A stretch of 64,000 nucleotides of DNA from Pseudogemmobacter hezensis (GTDB taxonomy: Bacteria > Pseudomonadota > Alphaproteobacteria > Rhodobacterales > Rhodobacteraceae). Position 1 is the first letter of the stretch. Every line of letters starts with the position of its first letter. The notes below the pieces were generated by a model that saw only the letters and a list, made by a program, of their open reading frames with translations, made no database searches and was not told where the DNA came from. The translations under genes and the position numbers were made by a program. The stretch spans positions 62,001 through 126,000 of the forward strand of contig NZ_JABJXT010000001.1 of NCBI RefSeq assembly GCF_013155295.1, in the 5' to 3' direction. Shown here piece by piece: positions 11,841 to 19,234 of the stretch.

Positions 11841-13271
11841 ATGTCCGAGAAAACAACCCCTCCTGGCACCCGTCAGGACAACTCGGCACCCGAGGGCGAG
11901 CGTATTGCCAAGGTGCTGTCGCGCCGGGGCGTCGCCTCGCGCCGCGAGGCCGAGCGTCTGATCGAGGCAGGCGAGGTCAGCGTCAATGGCAAGATCATCA
12001 CCAGCCCCGCGCTGAATGTCACCTCCGCCGACCGGATCACCGTATCAGGCCGCCACCTTCCCGAGGAAGAGGAAGCCAGGCTCTGGCTTTACTACAAACC
12101 CGAGGGGCTGGTCACCACCGCCTCGGACGAAAAGGGCCGCGATACGGTCTTTGACCACCTGCCCGAAGATATGCCCCGGGTGATGTCGGTCGGCAGGCTT
12201 GACCTCAACTCTGAGGGGCTTTTGCTTTTGACCAATGACGGCGGGCTGAAACGGCGGCTGGAACTGCCCTCGACCGGCTGGCTGCGCAAATACCGGGTGC
12301 GCGTCAATGGCCGGCCCGAAGATCAGGCCTTCGCCCCCCTGCGCGAAGGCATCACCGTCGATGGTGAGCGGTTCAAGCCGATGCAGGTCACCCTTGATCG
12401 CCAACAGGGCGCCAATGCCTGGCTGACCGTCGGCCTGCGCGAAGGCCGCAACCGCGAGATCCGCCGCGCGATGAACGCGATCGGCTTTTACGTGAACCGC
12501 CTGATCCGGGTCTCTTACGGCCCGTTCCGGCTGGGCGATCTGGAGCCGGGCCAGGTCGAAGAGGTCAAGGCCCGCGTGCTGCGCGACCAGCTGGGCGAGA
12601 TCGAGGCCGAGGGCGAGAAATCGGCAGGCGGCAGGCCGGTCGGCACCGCCCGCGCCCGCCCCGCCCTGACCCGCGTTCGCGTCGGAAAACCCGACAGCGC
12701 CAGAGCAGCGGGCGGCAAATCCCCGGCAGGGCGTCCGGCGGGCGAGCGCACCTATAGTGACAGCGCGGGCAGCCGCAGCAGCAAATTTGGCGCGCCAAAG
12801 GGGCGTGACGACGGCGCAGGCAGCCGCAGCGCGGGCGCACCCGCCAAACGCAGCGCAGGCGGCAGCATGTCCGGCGCTCAGGCCGCCCGCAGCCTGCGGG
12901 CCGCACAAAGCGACGAGCGCAGCGCCCCCCGTGCCGCCACATCCCGGGCCAAACGAGGGCCGTCACGCGGCGATGCAGGAAATGATTTTTCCCGTAATCG
13001 TGATGCCGACCGAGAGTCTGGCCGTGATACTGGCCGTGAGTCTGGCCGTGGCTTCGGGCGCGGTTCGGCTGGCGCAAAGCCGGCCTCTGGCTTTACGGGC
13101 GCGTCACGCCCGCGCAACGCCGCCGCAGGCGCAGGCAATGCGGATGGGGCATCCCCCCGCAAGCCTGGCCCCGCAAAGCCCCGCGCCCCGCGCAAGGTCA
13201 GCACCCGTAATGCTGCCCCTGAAACGGCACCGGGCAAACCCCGCAGCAGGCCGCCCCGCGACAAAGACTGA
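11841..13271 (+). CDS. rluB: RluB-type 23S rRNA pseudouridine synthase with long disordered tail
   Basis: An S4 RNA-binding domain (about residues 20-70: RIAKVLSRRGVASRREAERL) is followed by an RsuA-type catalytic domain with the key aspartate at 121 (GRLDLNSEGLLLLTNDG). RluB makes pseudouridine in helix 89 of 23S rRNA; other family members (RluE/RluF) are possible. The enzyme part ends near residue 250. The remaining 225 or so residues are a low-complexity Ala/Gly/Arg/Ser tail rich in RGG- and SGR-like repeats. That tail is basic and probably disordered, which suits RNA contact. Total length 476 aa against about 290 for E. coli RluB. Long tails of this kind are common in alphaproteobacterial copies. 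Confidence 0.88.
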   Translation: MSEKTTPPGTRQDNSAPEGERIAKVLSRRGVASRREAERLIEAGEVSVNGKIITSPALNVTSADRITVSGRHLPEEEEARLWLYYKPEGLVTTASDEKGRDTVFDHLPEDMPRVMSVGRLDLNSEGLLLLTNDGGLKRRLELPSTGWLRKYRVRVNGRPEDQAFAPLREGITVDGERFKPMQVTLDRQQGANAWLTVGLREGRNREIRRAMNAIGFYVNRLIRVSYGPFRLGDLEPGQVEEVKARVLRDQLGEIEAEGEKSAGGRPVGTARARPALTRVRVGKPDSARAAGGKSPAGRPAGERTYSDSAGSRSSKFGAPKGRDDGAGSRSAGAPAKRSAGGSMSGAQAARSLRAAQSDERSAPRAATSRAKRGPSRGDAGNDFSRNRDADRESGRDTGRESGRGFGRGSAGAKPASGFTGASRPRNAAAGAGNADGASPRKPGPAKPRAPRKVSTRNAAPETAPGKPRSRPPRDKD

Positions 13272-13554: not shown

Positions 13555-13638
13555 ATGTCCGAATCCGGCCTGCGAACCCTGTCGCTCGCGCTTTTGATCG
13601 CCCTTGTCTTCTACGTCGCCGGATCGGGAGGCATCTGA
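13555..13638 (+). CDS. 27-aa single-span membrane peptide heading the XpaC/TelA operon
   Basis: A short ORF beginning MSESGLRTL encodes one hydrophobic segment (LALLIALVFYVAG) and ends with TGA at 13636-13638. That stop overlaps the ATG of the XpaC gene in a TGATG arrangement, typical of translational coupling. The upstream ribosome site is weak (CGGA). The coupling and the clean hydrophobic stretch support it; its shortness makes chance possible. No function is known. Confidence 0.5.
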   Translation: MSESGLRTLSLALLIALVFYVAGSGGI

Positions 13639-14567
13639 TGGCCGCACAGCGCTTTGGCGGAAAATACAGCCCCGACGGTCAAGGCGGCGGTCAAGGCAGC
13701 GGTCAGCGCAGCCCCGCCACATCCGGCGCGATGCCGCCCATCCCCCGCGCCGCGCCCGGATCTGAACGCCCCCGGGGCGGCTGGCGGGCCACGCTTTTGT
13801 TCCTGACCGCTTTCGCCTTCCTCTTCCCTGCCTTTGGCGACGAACCTGGCGCGATGCTGATGGACCTGATCGCGGGCGGCTTGCTGATTCTGGCCGCCTG
13901 GCTCACGCGTGAGGGGATGCGCGCCCGCGCCGCCTTCGCCGCCCGCAAGGTGGCCCGCCGCCCCGCCGTGCCGCGCATCCTCTTTGGGGCAATCGCTACG
14001 GGCGCGGCCCTTTTTACCGGCGGGCTGATCGGGCACGGGGTCTCGCTTTACCCGGTGCTTTTCGGCCTCGCAGGCGCGGCGCTGCATATCGGCGCCTTCG
14101 GCTTTGATCCCTGGTCCGACAAGGGCATGGAGGGGATCGACCGCTTCCAGACCGACCGCGTCGCCCGGGCGCTGGCCGGGGCGGAAAAGACGCTTTCGCA
14201 GATGAAAGACGCGATCCTGCGCGCCAAAGACCGCCAGCTTGAGGCCCGGGTCGACCGTTTCATCGCCCAGACCCGCGGCCTGATGCAGCGCGTCGAGGAA
14301 GATCCAGGCGATCTGACCGCCGCGCGGCGCTATCTGACCGTCTATCTTGAGGGCGCGCGCGATGCGACGGCGAAATTCGCCGATCTCTGGGCGATCCGCC
14401 CCGACCCAAAGGCCCGCGCCGATTATGAGGCGCTGCTGACCGATCTGGAAACCACTTTCGCCACCCGTTCTGAAAACCTGCTGGGCAATGACCGCGACAA
14501 TCTCGATATCGAGATCTCGGTGCTGCGTGACCGGCTGAAATTTGAAACCCCGAATTCCCAGCGTTAG
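13638..14567 (+). CDS. XpaC-like (5-bromo-4-chloroindolyl phosphate hydrolysis) membrane protein
   Basis: The 309-aa product has a Gly/Ser/Pro-rich N-terminal 45 residues, then four likely membrane segments (about 50-66, 74-89, 114-133, 137-155). A charged helical cytoplasmic region follows (170-300: FQTDRVARALAGAEKTLSQM, VDRFIAQTRGLMQRVEEDP). This layout and the pairing with telA fit the XpaC family. The family name comes from a Bacillus phenotype and does not prove a hydrolase; the protein is better seen as a partner of TelA in membrane or toxic-anion stress. It overlaps the preceding 27-aa ORF by one base and is followed 60 bp later by telA. Confidence 0.78.
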   Translation: MAAQRFGGKYSPDGQGGGQGSGQRSPATSGAMPPIPRAAPGSERPRGGWRATLLFLTAFAFLFPAFGDEPGAMLMDLIAGGLLILAAWLTREGMRARAAFAARKVARRPAVPRILFGAIATGAALFTGGLIGHGVSLYPVLFGLAGAALHIGAFGFDPWSDKGMEGIDRFQTDRVARALAGAEKTLSQMKDAILRAKDRQLEARVDRFIAQTRGLMQRVEEDPGDLTAARRYLTVYLEGARDATAKFADLWAIRPDPKARADYEALLTDLETTFATRSENLLGNDRDNLDIEISVLRDRLKFETPNSQR

Positions 14568-14627
14568 AATTCCCCGCGTCAACGGATCCTGCGGGATCCC
14601 CACGCCCCAGCCATAAGGCCCTCTGCC

Positions 14628-15809
14628 ATGTCGAATGAGAACACCACCCGCGCCGCTGCCGAAGCAACCCTGGCCGAGGTCGAAGCGGTCACCGCCGTCA
14701 TCCTGCCCGAGCCCACCGGCGAGGTCGTGACCCTGGAAGCCGCCAGCCCCGACAAGGCCGCCGCGATTGAAAAGCGGATGGCAGAGCTGGATCTGACCAA
14801 TACCCAGTCGATCATCTCTTTCGGCTCTGCAGCCCAGGCCGAGCTGCAGGTCATCAGCCAGGAGATGCTGCAGGATGTGAAGAACAAGGATGTCGGCCCG
14901 GCGGGCGACAGCCTGCGCAAGATCGTCACCACCATCCGCGGCTTCTCAACCTCAGAGCTGGATCTGCGCCGCGAATCCTCCTGGTGGGAGCGTCTTCTGG
15001 GCCGCGCCGCCCCCTTCGCCGATTTCGTGGCGAAATATGAGGATGTGCAAAGCCAGATCGACAAGGTCACCGGCGAGTTGCTGGGCCATGAGACCAGGCT
15101 GCTGAAAGACATCAAATCGCTTGATCTGCTTTATGCAAAAACGCTGGCCTTCTATGACGAGCTGGGCCTTTACATCGCGGCGGGCGAGGCACGGCTGAAA
15201 GAGGTGGATGCGAAAGACATCCCCGCCAAAGAGGCCGAGGTCGCTGCCGCCCCCGAAAACGATCAGGTGATCCGCGCCCAGGAGCTGCGCGATCTGCGCG
15301 CCGCGCGTGACGATCTGGAACGCCGCGTCCATGATCTGAAACTGACCCGCCAGGTGACCATGCAGTCGCTGCCCTCGATCCGGCTGGTGCAGGAAAACGA
15401 CAAATCGCTGGTCACCAAGATCAACTCGACGCTGGTGAACACCGTGCCGCTGTGGGAAACGCAGCTGGCCCAGGCGGTCACCATCCAGCGCTCGAAAGAG
15501 GCCGCCGAGTCGATCCGCGATGCCAATGACCTGACCAATGAGCTGCTGAAATCCAACGCCGAGAACCTGCAGCAGGCCAACCGCACTGTGCGCGAGGAAA
15601 TGGAGCGCGGCGTCTTTGACATTGAAACGGTGAAACACGCCAATGAGACGCTGATCGCCACCATCAACGAAAGCCTCGCAATCGCCGATGAGGGCAAGGC
15701 CCGCCGCGCCGCGGCTGAGGTTGAGCTGCAAAAGATGGAAACCGAGCTGCGCGATACCCTCGCTTCGGCCCGCGCCCGCTCGATCGCGCCCAGCCAGTCG
15801 CAATCATGA
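14628..15809 (+). CDS. telA: TelA-family toxic anion resistance protein
   Basis: This 393-aa, largely alpha-helical protein matches the TelA/KlaA family: SIISFGSAAQAELQVISQEML near residue 60, WWERLLGR near 118, and long charged helices with conserved LRDLRAARDDLERRVHDLKL and PSIRLVQENDKSLVTKINST. TelA proteins were linked to tellurite resistance and later to membrane-linked stress responses; their biochemistry is unresolved. There is no signal peptide, so it should act in the cytoplasm or at the inner membrane face. The stop overlaps the start of the next gene by 4 bp. Confidence 0.9.
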   Translation: MSNENTTRAAAEATLAEVEAVTAVILPEPTGEVVTLEAASPDKAAAIEKRMAELDLTNTQSIISFGSAAQAELQVISQEMLQDVKNKDVGPAGDSLRKIVTTIRGFSTSELDLRRESSWWERLLGRAAPFADFVAKYEDVQSQIDKVTGELLGHETRLLKDIKSLDLLYAKTLAFYDELGLYIAAGEARLKEVDAKDIPAKEAEVAAAPENDQVIRAQELRDLRAARDDLERRVHDLKLTRQVTMQSLPSIRLVQENDKSLVTKINSTLVNTVPLWETQLAQAVTIQRSKEAAESIRDANDLTNELLKSNAENLQQANRTVREEMERGVFDIETVKHANETLIATINESLAIADEGKARRAAAEVELQKMETELRDTLASARARSIAPSQSQS

Positions 15810-16765
15810 TCCAAAACCGGACCCCAGGTCTGAAATTCTGGCCCGCCGCTTTGCTGGCGGCGGGCCTTACTGCCTGCACCACGCTGCCCGACCAGGGCAT
15901 GCCGCGCATGGCGGCACCGCCCCCGCGCCCGGCAAGCCCGGCCCCCGCCCCGGCTGACACCGAAAAAAGCGCCGCGATCCGGGCCTATTACACGCAAATC
16001 CAGGCCTCACTGTTGGCCCAGGGGCGGTTGCGCACCGATGGCGGTGGCCAGGACACGCCCTTTGACGCAAGGATCCTGGCAGAGAACTTCATCCGCATCG
16101 CGCTTTATGACGAATACAGCCGCCAGGATGGCGCGTTCAAAGCAGGGGAATCCAGCTCGATCCTGCGCCGCTGGGATGTGCCGATCCGCTTTCAGATCCA
16201 TTTCGGCGCCTCGGTGCCCGCAGATCGCCGCGCTGCGGATCGCGCCCGGATCGCCTCTTACCTCAAACGCCTGTCGGATCTGACCCGTCACCCGATCACC
16301 CTTGTCGATCAGGGCGGCAATTTCAGCCTCTATGTGGTCTCTGAGGATGAGCGCGAGGCCCTTGGCCCCGCCCTGCGCAGCGCCCTGCCGGGGCTGAGCA
16401 CGCAGGATGTGACCGATGTGACCGGCATGCAGCCGACAACCTATTGCCTGGTCTATGCGCTGTCAGACGGCGACAGCGGCAATTACCGCCGGGCGGTGGC
16501 GGTTGTGCGGGCCGAGCATCCCGATCTCTTGCGCCAATCCTGCTATCATGAGGAAATCGCGCAAGGCCTGGGGCTGGCCAATGACAGCCCACGCGCCCGC
16601 CCCTCGATCTTCAATGACGATGAGGAATTCGCGCTGCTGACCCGCCAGGATGAGCTGATGCTGAAGATCCTTTACGATCCGGAAATGTGGCCCGGCATGA
16701 CCGAGGCCGAGGCGGCCCCCGTGGTGCGCCGCATTGCGCAGCGCCTGATGGGGGGCGGCACATGA
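15806..16765 (+). CDS. DUF2927 lipoprotein
   Basis: The 319-aa product begins with a signal sequence ending in the lipobox LTAC (Cys24), then a Pro/Ala-rich linker to about residue 55. The DUF2927 domain fills the rest, with motifs such as IRFQIHFGASVP, SCYHEEIAQGLGLANDS and FNDDEEFALLT. CYHEEIAQ contains an HE pair reminiscent of a metal site, but no activity is established for the family. It is expected in the periplasm, tethered to a membrane. Its ATG overlaps the telA stop, so it is part of the same operon. Confidence 0.82.
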   Translation: MIQNRTPGLKFWPAALLAAGLTACTTLPDQGMPRMAAPPPRPASPAPAPADTEKSAAIRAYYTQIQASLLAQGRLRTDGGGQDTPFDARILAENFIRIALYDEYSRQDGAFKAGESSSILRRWDVPIRFQIHFGASVPADRRAADRARIASYLKRLSDLTRHPITLVDQGGNFSLYVVSEDEREALGPALRSALPGLSTQDVTDVTGMQPTTYCLVYALSDGDSGNYRRAVAVVRAEHPDLLRQSCYHEEIAQGLGLANDSPRARPSIFNDDEEFALLTRQDELMLKILYDPEMWPGMTEAEAAPVVRRIAQRLMGGGT

Positions 16766-16974
16766 ACGGCAGAGGCGCCCGGTCACAGCAAGCAGGCAGT
16801 TCCGGGGAACGGGCGGCATTTTACGCTGCGGGCTACGCTGCGGGCCGAACCGATATCGGCCCGGATTTGGCGCGTTTCCCCCTTCAATCCAGGCAAATGG
16901 TCGCTATTTTGACCATGACATTTACAGCGGCAGCTGCGGCCCATCAGGCAGCACCACGCGGACAGAAAGGCTGA
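16762..16974 (+). CDS. Possible 70-aa small ORF coupled to the DUF2927 gene
   Basis: ATG 16762 overlaps the DUF2927 stop (ATGA), and the frame ends 4 bp before the SPFH gene, so it would fill the gap exactly. The predicted peptide has a weakly hydrophobic stretch (MVAILTMTFTAAAAAH) near residues 46-61. No family is recognised. The spacing is the main support; it may instead be an untranslated spacer. Confidence 0.35.
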   Translation: MNGRGARSQQAGSSGERAAFYAAGYAAGRTDIGPDLARFPLQSRQMVAILTMTFTAAAAAHQAAPRGQKG

Positions 16975-16978
16975 GCCC

Positions 16979-18085
16979 ATGGTTTTCGATTTCCTCAGAG
17001 GCGAGTTTATCGACGTCATCTCCTGGCTCGATGACACCCGTGACACCATGGTCTGGCGCTTTGAGCGTCGCGGCCAGGCGATCAAATACGGCGCCAAGCT
17101 GACCGTGCGTGAGGGTCAGGCTGCGGTATTCATCCATGAGGGTCAGCTGGCGGATGTCTTCGGCCCCGGTCTCTATCAGCTTGAGACCAACAATATGCCG
17201 ATCCTGACCACGCTGCAGCATTGGGATCACGGCTTTAAATCGCCCTTCCAGTCAGAGGTCTATTTCGTCTCGACCACCCGTTTCACCGACCAGAAATGGG
17301 GCACCAAAAACCCGATCATGGCCCGTGATCCGGAATTCGGCCCGGTGCGGCTGCGCGCCTTTGGCACCTATGTGATGCGGGTCACCGATCCTGGTAAGTT
17401 CATGACGGAAATCGTTGGAACTGATGGGGAATTCACCGCTGACGAGATCTCGCTGCATATCCGCAATATCATCGTCCAGGCGGCAAGCCAGGTGCTGGCG
17501 GGCTCGGGGATTCCGGTGCTGGATATGGCCGCGAATACCACCGATCTGGGCAAGCTGATCGCCACCGCGATCACACCGAAAGTGGCGGAATACGGAATCT
17601 CGATTCCCGAATTCTACATTGAAAACATCAGCCTGCCGGACGAAGTTGAGAAAGCACTTGATAAGCGCACCTCGATGGGTGTCGTTGGCGATCTGAACAA
17701 ATACATGCAGTTCCAGACCGCCGAGGCGATGGGGAACCCCGCCTCTGGCGCGGGCTCGGCCATGGCGACGGGTGCGGGCATGGCGATGGGCATGGGAATG
17801 GCTCAGAATATGGGACCGAACATGGGGCCCTGGGGGGCGCAGCCTGCTGCCGCGCCCCATACGCCACCGCCGCCGCCCCCCGTCGGCAAGGAATGGCATC
17901 TGGCCGAGAATGGCGCCACCAAAGGCCCCTTCACCGAGGCGCAGCTGCAGGGCCTGGTCGCCTCGGGGCAGCTGCAGCGCGGCACCATGGTCTGGTCTGC
18001 GGGCATGGACGGCTGGAGCGCCGCGACCGAAACCGAGCTTGCGCGGCTCTTTTCTTACCAGCCGCCACCGCCGCCTGCGGGATAA
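16979..18085 (+). CDS. SPFH-domain protein with C-terminal GYF_2 domain (YdjI / virion-core-like)
   Basis: The 368-aa product starts with the YdjI-type SPFH (flotillin-like) domain, residues about 25-235 (LTVREGQAAVFIHEGQLADV, DPEFGPVRLRAFGTYVMRV). A Gly/Ala/Met-rich linker (250-285) and a run of prolines (296-301) follow. A GYF_2 domain covers about 305-358 (WHLAENGATKGPFTEAQLQ, GTMVWSAGMDGWSAA), and a second proline run (362-366) ends the chain. SPFH proteins form rings or scaffolds at membranes. GYF domains bind proline-rich peptides, so the proline runs here and in the DUF2927 lipoprotein linker are possible internal or partner ligands. The next gene follows after 3 bp. Confidence 0.85.
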   Translation: MVFDFLRGEFIDVISWLDDTRDTMVWRFERRGQAIKYGAKLTVREGQAAVFIHEGQLADVFGPGLYQLETNNMPILTTLQHWDHGFKSPFQSEVYFVSTTRFTDQKWGTKNPIMARDPEFGPVRLRAFGTYVMRVTDPGKFMTEIVGTDGEFTADEISLHIRNIIVQAASQVLAGSGIPVLDMAANTTDLGKLIATAITPKVAEYGISIPEFYIENISLPDEVEKALDKRTSMGVVGDLNKYMQFQTAEAMGNPASGAGSAMATGAGMAMGMGMAQNMGPNMGPWGAQPAAAPHTPPPPPPVGKEWHLAENGATKGPFTEAQLQGLVASGQLQRGTMVWSAGMDGWSAATETELARLFSYQPPPPPAG

Positions 18086-18088
18086 GTG

Positions 18089-19234
18089 ATGGCTGTCACC
18101 ACGCCTGTCACGGGCGAACATCGCTGGCCCTGCAGCCAGTGCGGCGCCCAGTTGCGCTTTGCGCCCGGCCAGCGAGAGCTGGTCTGCGATCACTGCGGCA
18201 ATGTCCAGCGCCTGCCCGATGTCGCGCTAAGCGACAGTCAGGCGGCGCTGGCCCGCCATGATCTGGCACGCGGGCTGAGCGATGATCTTGCCAGCAGCGC
18301 GATGGAAGTGGTGCGCACCACCCGCTGCACCTCTTGCGGCGCGCTGATCGAGTTCGAGGGCGCGACCCATGCCACCGAATGCCCGTTCTGCGCCACCCCG
18401 GTGGTGGCCTCGACGGGCGAGACGCGGCAGATCAAACCCCAGGCGCTGGTGCCCTTTGTGCTGTCCGAACGCGAGGCCCGCGAGGCGCTGGTGAAATGGC
18501 TGGGGGGCCTGTGGTTCGCGCCCAACCGCCTGCTGGAATTCACCCGTCGCGGCAGGGCGATGAATGGCGTCTATGTGCCCTGGTGGAGCTTTGATGCCGA
18601 GACCAGCTCGCGCTATACCGGCAGCCGGGGCGATGCCTATTATGTCACCCGCACCGTCACCATCGACGGCAAAAAGCAGACCCGCCAGGAGCGGAAAATC
18701 CGCTGGAGCCCGGCCTCGGGCCAGGTCTCGCGCGATTTTCAGGACGTGGGGGTGCTGGGCTCGCTCAGCCTGCCGGCCCGCTATGCCAATGAGCTGGATC
18801 CCTGGGATCTCAGCAAGCTGGTGCCCTATTCGCCCGACTACCTGGCCGGGTTCACCGCCGAGGGCTATACCGTGCCCGTGCGCCCCGCGAGCGAGCAGTC
18901 AAAGGACAAAATGGCGGTGGTGATCGCCCATGATGTGCGCCGCGATATCGGCGGGGACGAGCAGAGGATCGCCTCGATCGACACCCGCTACCGCGACGAG
19001 ACCTTCCGCCACATCCTGCTGCCGATCTGGATGGCCGCCTATAAATACAACGGCAAAAGCTATCAGTTCCTGGTCAATGGCCAGACCGGAGAGGTCCAGG
19101 GCGAGCGCCCCTGGTCGGTCTGGAAGATCGCCTTTGCGGCCCTGGCGGCGGCTGCGCTGGCGGCTTTGGTGCTTTACCTGATGAAGGATGGCGATTTCAG
19201 CGTCAGCTCAGGCGGGCTTGACTGGCTGGATTAG
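18089..19234 (+). CDS. Double zinc-ribbon protein with C-terminal membrane anchor
   Basis: The 381-aa product has two treble-cysteine ribbons: Cys15/18/33/36 and Cys80/83/98/101 (CxxCG pairs). A middle domain with WWSFDAETSSRYTG and tandem aromatic residues follows, and one hydrophobic helix lies near residues 346-365. Automatic annotation often calls such proteins primosomal protein N'-like or TFIIB-type zinc ribbon; neither function is shown here, as no helicase motifs are present. Paired with an SPFH protein it recalls the Bacillus ydjG-ydjI membrane-stress group. ATG 18089 follows the SPFH stop directly; a GTG 3 bp earlier is possible. It is the last gene of the operon, with 149 bp before purC. 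Confidence 0.8.
   Translation: MAVTTPVTGEHRWPCSQCGAQLRFAPGQRELVCDHCGNVQRLPDVALSDSQAALARHDLARGLSDDLASSAMEVVRTTRCTSCGALIEFEGATHATECPFCATPVVASTGETRQIKPQALVPFVLSEREAREALVKWLGGLWFAPNRLLEFTRRGRAMNGVYVPWWSFDAETSSRYTGSRGDAYYVTRTVTIDGKKQTRQERKIRWSPASGQVSRDFQDVGVLGSLSLPARYANELDPWDLSKLVPYSPDYLAGFTAEGYTVPVRPASEQSKDKMAVVIAHDVRRDIGGDEQRIASIDTRYRDETFRHILLPIWMAAYKYNGKSYQFLVNGQTGEVQGERPWSVWKIAFAALAAAALAALVLYLMKDGDFSVSSGGLDWLD

Follow-up and report, generated by a model that had tools for sequence, protein, structure and literature searches.

Which task might be shared by the seven consecutive open reading frames (ORFs) that are flanked by a pseudouridine-synthase gene (11841-13271) and by purC (SAICAR synthetase, ending 20364) in a 64,000-nucleotide stretch of Pseudogemmobacter hezensis DNA? 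The whole stretch is called the window here and all positions are counted within it. The cluster spans 13555..19234 on the plus strand and brings together an XpaC-TelA gene pair, a DUF2927 lipoprotein, and an SPFH protein followed by a zinc-ribbon protein (ZnR). We propose, with a probability of about 0.5, that it encodes an envelope/membrane-stress module in which XpaC-TelA is joined with a YdjI/YdjG-like SPFH-zinc-ribbon pair. This explanation is favoured because the cluster is conserved throughout the Rhodobacterales, its spacing is tight, its genes are lost together, related clusters occur in three other families, and the Firmicutes literature fits it. The elements of the locus are the following.

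13555..13638, plus strand: orf1, a 27-amino-acid microprotein with a single transmembrane helix, overlapping the XpaC start by one base.
13638..14567, plus strand: XpaC (PF10112), 309 amino acids, two transmembrane helices (71-89 and 114-132) by crude hydropathy.
14628..15809, plus strand: TelA (PF05816), 393 amino acids, no transmembrane segment by hydropathy.
15806..16765, plus strand: DUF2927 lipoprotein (PF11150), 319 amino acids, predicted metzincin fold.
16762..16974, plus strand: variable slot with orf5 (70 amino acids), which is very probably not a gene.
16882..16910, plus strand: promoter-like element CTTCAA-17 nt-TATTTT before SPFH.
16979..18085, plus strand: SPFH protein (Band_7_1) with C-terminal GYF_2 domain, 368 amino acids, YdjI-like, no transmembrane segment by hydropathy.
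18089..19234, plus strand: ZnR, YdjG-like double zinc ribbon, 381 amino acids, with an alternative GTG start at 18086.

The original prediction, made from the DNA letters, described seven ORFs on a single strand at this place, and the ORF positions bear this out, with junctions from -4 to +60 bases. orf1 and XpaC share one base, XpaC and TelA are 60 bases apart, TelA/DUF2927 and DUF2927/orf5 each overlap by 4, orf5 and SPFH are separated by 4, and the SPFH-ZnR distance is 0 or 3 depending on whether ZnR starts at GTG 18086 or at ATG 18089. Its family names agree with the Pfam matches for XpaC (PF10112, 2.8e-24), TelA (PF05816, 2.7e-107), DUF2927 (PF11150, 3.4e-63) and, in the SPFH protein, Band_7_1 (PF13421, 2.1e-102) and GYF_2 (PF14237, 1.5e-16). 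The double zinc ribbon assigned to the seventh ORF is supported by eight conserved cysteines, whereas the Pfam zinc-ribbon matches are sub-threshold only. The term operon rests on spacing and conservation, because a scan of the cluster for consensus promoters and terminators gave a signal at most slightly over that of shuffled sequences; the idea of one unit therefore stands as far as these go, but that of a single transcript is weakened by the promoter-like element before SPFH.

Is the arrangement peculiar to the window? In an order-level sample of 121 Rhodobacterales genomes from 59 genera, TelA was found in 119 genomes, DUF2927 in 120, XpaC in 118, ZnR in 117 and Band_7_1 SPFH in 118 (117 above cut-off). 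Gene neighbourhoods were compared in 121 loci, namely the window and 120 stretches comprising the TelA loci of all TelA genomes except G025, together with stretches from G011 and G106 and a second one from G048. TelA is present in 118 of these loci, XpaC in 111, DUF2927 in 116, SPFH in 113 and ZnR in 101, and 92 have all five. The order of whichever cluster genes are present is identical throughout, and all 437 partner matches in TelA-bearing loci agree with TelA in strand. The cluster is therefore not due to chance, and its core is not scattered among relatives, apart from some relocated copies; among genes absent from the loci, some fall at contig ends and others are truly relocated. A spacing of at most 100 bp holds for 108 of 111 XpaC-TelA pairs, 112 of 114 TelA-DUF2927 pairs, 73 of 109 DUF2927-SPFH pairs and 41 of 101 SPFH-ZnR pairs; in G110, TelA and DUF2927 are separated by 11 kb.

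The pattern of gene loss tells which members belong most closely together. SPFH (above cut-off) and ZnR go together throughout: 117 genomes have both and four, G011, G081, G085 and G106, have neither (Fisher p 1e-7 over the 121 genomes, relatedness not corrected for). In G048 the two sit together at a separate place. XpaC is absent from G011, G085 and G106, and TelA from G011 and G106; G085, the sole genome without DUF2927, has a fragmentary TelA match only. This pattern points to two tight pairs that have been joined, with DUF2927 as the loosest member.

Outside the order we drew 125 genomes from the class (three of them Rhodobacterales) and 299 from the phylum (24 of them of family f1, to which the genome of the window belongs). 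Among the 122 other genomes of the class draw, TelA was above cut-off in nine and full-length Band_7_1 (>200 bits) in five, all five with TelA (p 6e-7). Genomes from three other families (G171, G219, G229; loci L270-L272) carry a compact XpaC-TelA-SPFH-ZnR cluster without DUF2927; these stretches show no clear orf1-like gene ahead of XpaC, and RluB and purC were not found there either. The SPFH-ZnR pair lies on a different contig in G243, and about 129 kb separate SPFH and TelA in G141. In the phylum draw, 39 of the 275 other genomes had TelA above cut-off, 19 had Band_7_1 at >200 bits and six had both. SPFH-ZnR pairs without XpaC-TelA occur in Vibrio, Comamonas, Tsukamurella and Enterococcus records, and an XpaC-TelA pair standing alone in a Listeria record. 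In these samples the joined cluster belongs to the Rhodobacterales plus a few alphaproteobacteria outside the order. As a side observation, two other alphaproteobacterial genomes (L274, L279) have a lipoprotein-like ORF of about 525 amino acids between XpaC and TelA.

Conserved order might also be a mere inheritance, with separately acting housekeeping genes kept as neighbours by common descent and no shared function. RluB is a conserved upstream neighbour in 91 of the 121 loci, a carbohydrate kinase-like and a dtd-like gene (names from sequence) lie downstream in 52 and 72 loci, and purC comes next in 21 of the 80 nearest named loci, being a neighbour in the window's closer kin. Such an explanation is nevertheless rather improbable: the core pairs keep overlaps or gaps of <100 bp, losses of SPFH and ZnR coincide, and in the three other families the core is found again with neither RluB nor purC seen next to it. 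As a member of the unit across the whole order, purC was rejected, since it occurs in only 5 of 120 Rhodobacterales loci, once reversed and beyond RluB.

What the first pair may do is suggested by its counterparts in Firmicutes. In the window a PF10112 gene directly precedes a PF05816 gene, the same two families in the same order as in Listeria (lmo1966-1967) and Lactococcus lactis (llmg_1115-1116); the Listeria pair stands alone, whereas that of the window is part of a cluster with SPFH, ZnR and a lipoprotein. The window TelA is 38% identical to Listeria TelA over 322 columns, and XpaC is weakly alike (8e-5). According to the accessible passages of one study, the L. lactis XpaC and TelA genes are upregulated 10.3- and 3.4-fold upon membrane-protein overproduction, and the double deletion is partly impaired (PMC3139573). 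Listeria XpaC-TelA is discussed in excerpts of another in the context of the garvicin KS response, and the lmo1967 (telA) mutant is reported there to be 4-fold nisin-sensitive and 2-fold tellurite-sensitive (PMC12791056). By analogy with these homologues, the cluster would have a stress role.

The 2-fold tellurite sensitivity, the Pfam name of TelA and the annotation of plasmid homologues as KlaB, tellurium resistance, would also suit a toxic-anion resistance locus, in which TelA and XpaC, aided by the remaining genes, guard against tellurite or related oxyanions. Still, the same Listeria mutant is nisin-sensitive, the L. lactis pair reacts to membrane-protein overload, and the presence of TelA in 119 of 121 genomes is easier to reconcile with a general role in stress than with a specialised resistance trait; we regard a tellurite locus as improbable.

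For the second pair, the original prediction had drawn a link to the ydjG-ydjI group, and it finds support in ZnR, which aligns nearly over its full length with the Enterococcus ZnR from an SPFH-ZnR-TPM cluster (26% identity); the likeness is drawn via this protein, and the B. subtilis proteins themselves were not compared. The cysteines C15, C18, C33, C36 and C80, C83, C98, C101 are all conserved, and the model of ZnR comprises a double zinc ribbon, a beta-rich middle domain and a C-terminal transmembrane helix (344-366). This model agrees with YdjG, because YdjG too is described, in the available part of PMC11237479, as two zinc ribbons, a further (YpeB-related) domain and a transmembrane segment. 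It treats ydjFGHL-type operons, and the text of the paper contains neither "tellur" nor TelA.

Adjacent genes for an SPFH protein and a tail-anchored double zinc ribbon are thus common to the cluster and to B. subtilis pspA-ydjGHI (YdjI, SPFH; YdjG, zinc ribbon; YdjH, TPM). Here, however, XpaC, TelA, DUF2927 and a transmembrane microprotein replace pspA and the TPM gene; no PspA match was found among the cluster ORFs scanned with Pfam, and no TPM match among the seven ORFs. The SPFH C-terminus also differs, carrying a GYF domain and proline runs and not the zinc ribbon of the B. subtilis system. Both proline runs lie where the original prediction put them (residues 296-301 and 362-366). GYF is found in 111 of 113 SPFH orthologues; 105 of the 113 have a proline run of at least four residues within their C-terminal 110 residues, and 95 have two or more runs. 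The combination of a GYF domain with proline runs on either side is thus conserved in this SPFH protein, and the runs may serve as ligands of GYF.

In Bacillus, YdjI with YdjG/H is needed for the localisation of PspA at the membrane, as stated in the accessible passages of PMC8581546. A PspA match is present in 41 of the 121 Rhodobacterales genomes, and 76 of the 80 genomes without PspA have the SPFH-ZnR pair. In most of these genomes the pair must therefore have a function in the absence of PspA. Its nearest candidate client, by gene context, is TelA.

Three features escaped the earlier reading: orf1 as a conserved gene family, the fold of DUF2927 with its changed ligands, and two variable inner slots. 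The 27 residues of orf1 form one hydrophobic helix with a consensus of about M-S-x-x-x-L-Q-K-[IL]-A-[YF]-x-x-L-x-x-L...G-G. An ORF of this type precedes XpaC in 110 of 111 loci, 108 by a script and two (L054, L073) by eye, a count biased by itself because the script selects hydrophobic ORFs; none was found in the remaining locus, L043. In the 108 loci found by the script it ends within 8 bases of the XpaC start, with one exception (21 bases). A longer variant, of about 67-76 residues and with two hydrophobic stretches, occurs in some loci. A codon test served as a separate check. In frame, pN/pS is 0.15 (25 pairs, at most 20% diverged), while one alternative frame gives 1.7 (31 pairs) and the second 2.9 (25 pairs); the in-frame value rises with divergence to 0.32 (pairs up to 30%) and 0.51 (up to 45%), the other frames still being >1. 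By this codon signature orf1 is a real, conserved microprotein gene.

The DUF2927 lipoprotein is predicted to have a metzincin fold and is likened to the metallopeptidases MMP-7 and karilysin, from which it differs in having the predicted fold without the classical zinc ligands. In place of HExxHxxGxxH it has E249-E250-x-x-Q253-x-x-G256-x-x-N259-D260, where the mapping of E249/E250/Q253/G256/N259 to H/E/H/G/H comes from motif spacing in the aligned range and not from a residue-by-residue superposition. Of 208 DUF2927 sequences, in which some genomes are represented twice, 205 have EExxQxxGxxND and none has the zinc-binding HExxHxxGxxH. On the basis of the model, the protein may be a binding protein and not a classical protease. 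DUF2927 is mentioned in no paper of the open-licence PMC literature searched. Two further observations concern the family. The DUF2927 of G106 (L149), a genome without TelA, XpaC, SPFH and ZnR, is one of only three exceptions to EExxQxxGxxND; and an unlinked DUF2927 protein of about 460 amino acids with the motif CLHEExAQALGPLND adjoins an acetyltransferase-like ORF (named from sequence) in L281-L283 (G015, G033, G001).

The altered metal-site motif could equally be taken for a sign of metal handling at the membrane, where the cluster, with an upstream TerC, would load manganese or another metal into exported proteins. TerC proteins metalate exported proteins at Sec, according to the available passages of PMC10550928, and a TerC gene (PF03741, 2.9e-39 for one example) lies upstream of the microprotein gene and XpaC in 28 of the 121 loci (e.g. 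L036), 101-283 bp from XpaC in 26 of the 27 TerC loci having XpaC. These loci hint at a possible metal-loading link of the kind known for TerC/Mee at the Sec translocon. As TerC is confined to these loci and stands nowhere beside the window cluster, and no metal phenotype of other cluster genes turned up in the literature examined, we consider this explanation unlikely.

The variable slots lie within the block. Between DUF2927 and SPFH, five of 12 congeners have a gap of 768-878 bp that holds an ORF (L178-L182), of 223-241 amino acids and secreted-looking in four, and called at 166 amino acids in L181; the L178 protein, the only one tested, matches DUF4241 (1e-10). These ORFs overlap the DUF2927 stop, and related-looking proteins stand three in a row in L039. 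In the other seven congeners the interval is 13-177 bp long and lacks any ORF of 50 amino acids, and the slot of the window measures 213 bp. Between SPFH and ZnR, a cytochrome b561-like membrane gene is inserted in 29 of the 101 loci with both flanks (e.g. L046, L114; Pfam check of one example). Such DUF4241-type, cytochrome b561-like and other unrelated genes could be swapped effectors, making the cluster an island for conflict or defence. The core genes, however, are near-universal in the order, and PADLOC, run on five of the proteins, gave a single weak match (ZorA to TelA, E 0.007), which makes a defence locus very improbable.

Of the two tiny ORFs originally described, orf1 thus holds, but orf5 (16762-16974) was rejected as a gene. 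Its third-position GC is 0.56 (codon positions 0.65, 0.63, 0.56), as against 0.75-0.83 in the other six ORFs; tblastn at 1e-4 found it in none of the 120 order-wide loci. One congener, represented twice (L180/L190), gave a weak match (1.8e-4), but stops and gaps of lengths not divisible by three interrupt its aligned DNA; what matches is the conserved DNA ahead of SPFH, with its reading frame broken.

How could the parts work together in a stress module? ZnR, tail-anchored in the inner membrane, would be the membrane receptor on which the cytosolic SPFH-GYF protein assembles, and the GYF domains and proline runs may join neighbouring SPFH subunits or clients. The effector would be soluble TelA, held by integral-membrane XpaC and the small transmembrane partner of XpaC, and it would be brought to a damaged or overloaded membrane as PspA is with YdjI/YdjG in Bacillus. 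The DUF2927 lipoprotein would bind a ligand outside the cytoplasm, rather than cut it classically, and so provide an envelope-side input. Every physical contact in this scheme is one that we infer.

Several observations weigh against the stress module. Linkage fails in places: ZnR is far from the other cluster genes in six genomes of genus g8, some 50 kb off in G021, and reversed and upstream in G044, while XpaC is unlinked in six genomes of genus g7. G011 and G106 have kept DUF2927 but none of the other cluster genes, and the loci L048, L085 and L140 lack it. G081 retains XpaC-TelA-DUF2927 without SPFH and ZnR, so TelA can be kept without the SPFH-ZnR scaffold. The genome of the window itself has a PspA-family match on another contig (G000:C62:185669-186343, E 2.5e-21). 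The frequency of RluB upstream means that part of the block may be inherited synteny. In the phylum draw outside Rhodobacterales, TelA and Band_7_1 co-occur weakly (6 of 19 SPFH genomes, p 0.04), and in none of the six genomes with both do they share a contig at a distance of up to 5 kb. The literature searched yielded no expression or phenotype data for any member of the Rhodobacterales. Finally, an element CTTC..N17-TAT..T was seen by eye before SPFH in the window and in all nine aligned congeners (L178-L183, L186, L188, L189; three of the 12 were left unaligned), its spacing constant at 17 bases in 10 of 10 aligned genus members. It hints at a separate start for SPFH-ZnR in the window's genus. 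As an order-wide feature it was rejected, as it precedes SPFH in 1 of 113 loci, the window itself; it was found in none of 112 SPFH upstream regions outside the genus and before no other cluster gene.

No paper combining three of TelA, XpaC, SPFH and zinc ribbon was found in the open-licence PMC literature searched, and two parts of the proposed joined envelope-stress module look new, the microprotein family, which has no name to search by, and DUF2927 as a protein of predicted metzincin fold with replaced ligands. A bolder version, tentative and doubtful, makes TelA a second client, independent of PspA, of an SPFH/YdjG-type receptor. The resulting system, coupled outside to a pseudo-metzincin lipoprotein that keeps EExxQxxGxxN for ligand or metal sensing and tuned by the near-universal 27-residue transmembrane microprotein, would provide complete PspA-less membrane repair in about two thirds of the Rhodobacterales sampled. 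If true, this version would explain the action of TelA behind its tellurite label.

TelA, XpaC and YdjG-like proteins are widespread, and their mode of action is poorly understood. A lineage with a joined, compact cluster, usually without PspA, provides a clean setting in which to ask for the role and the partner of TelA. DUF2927 gains a predicted fold and a testable active-site replacement, and with orf1 comes a conserved microprotein of a size easily overlooked in gene calling.

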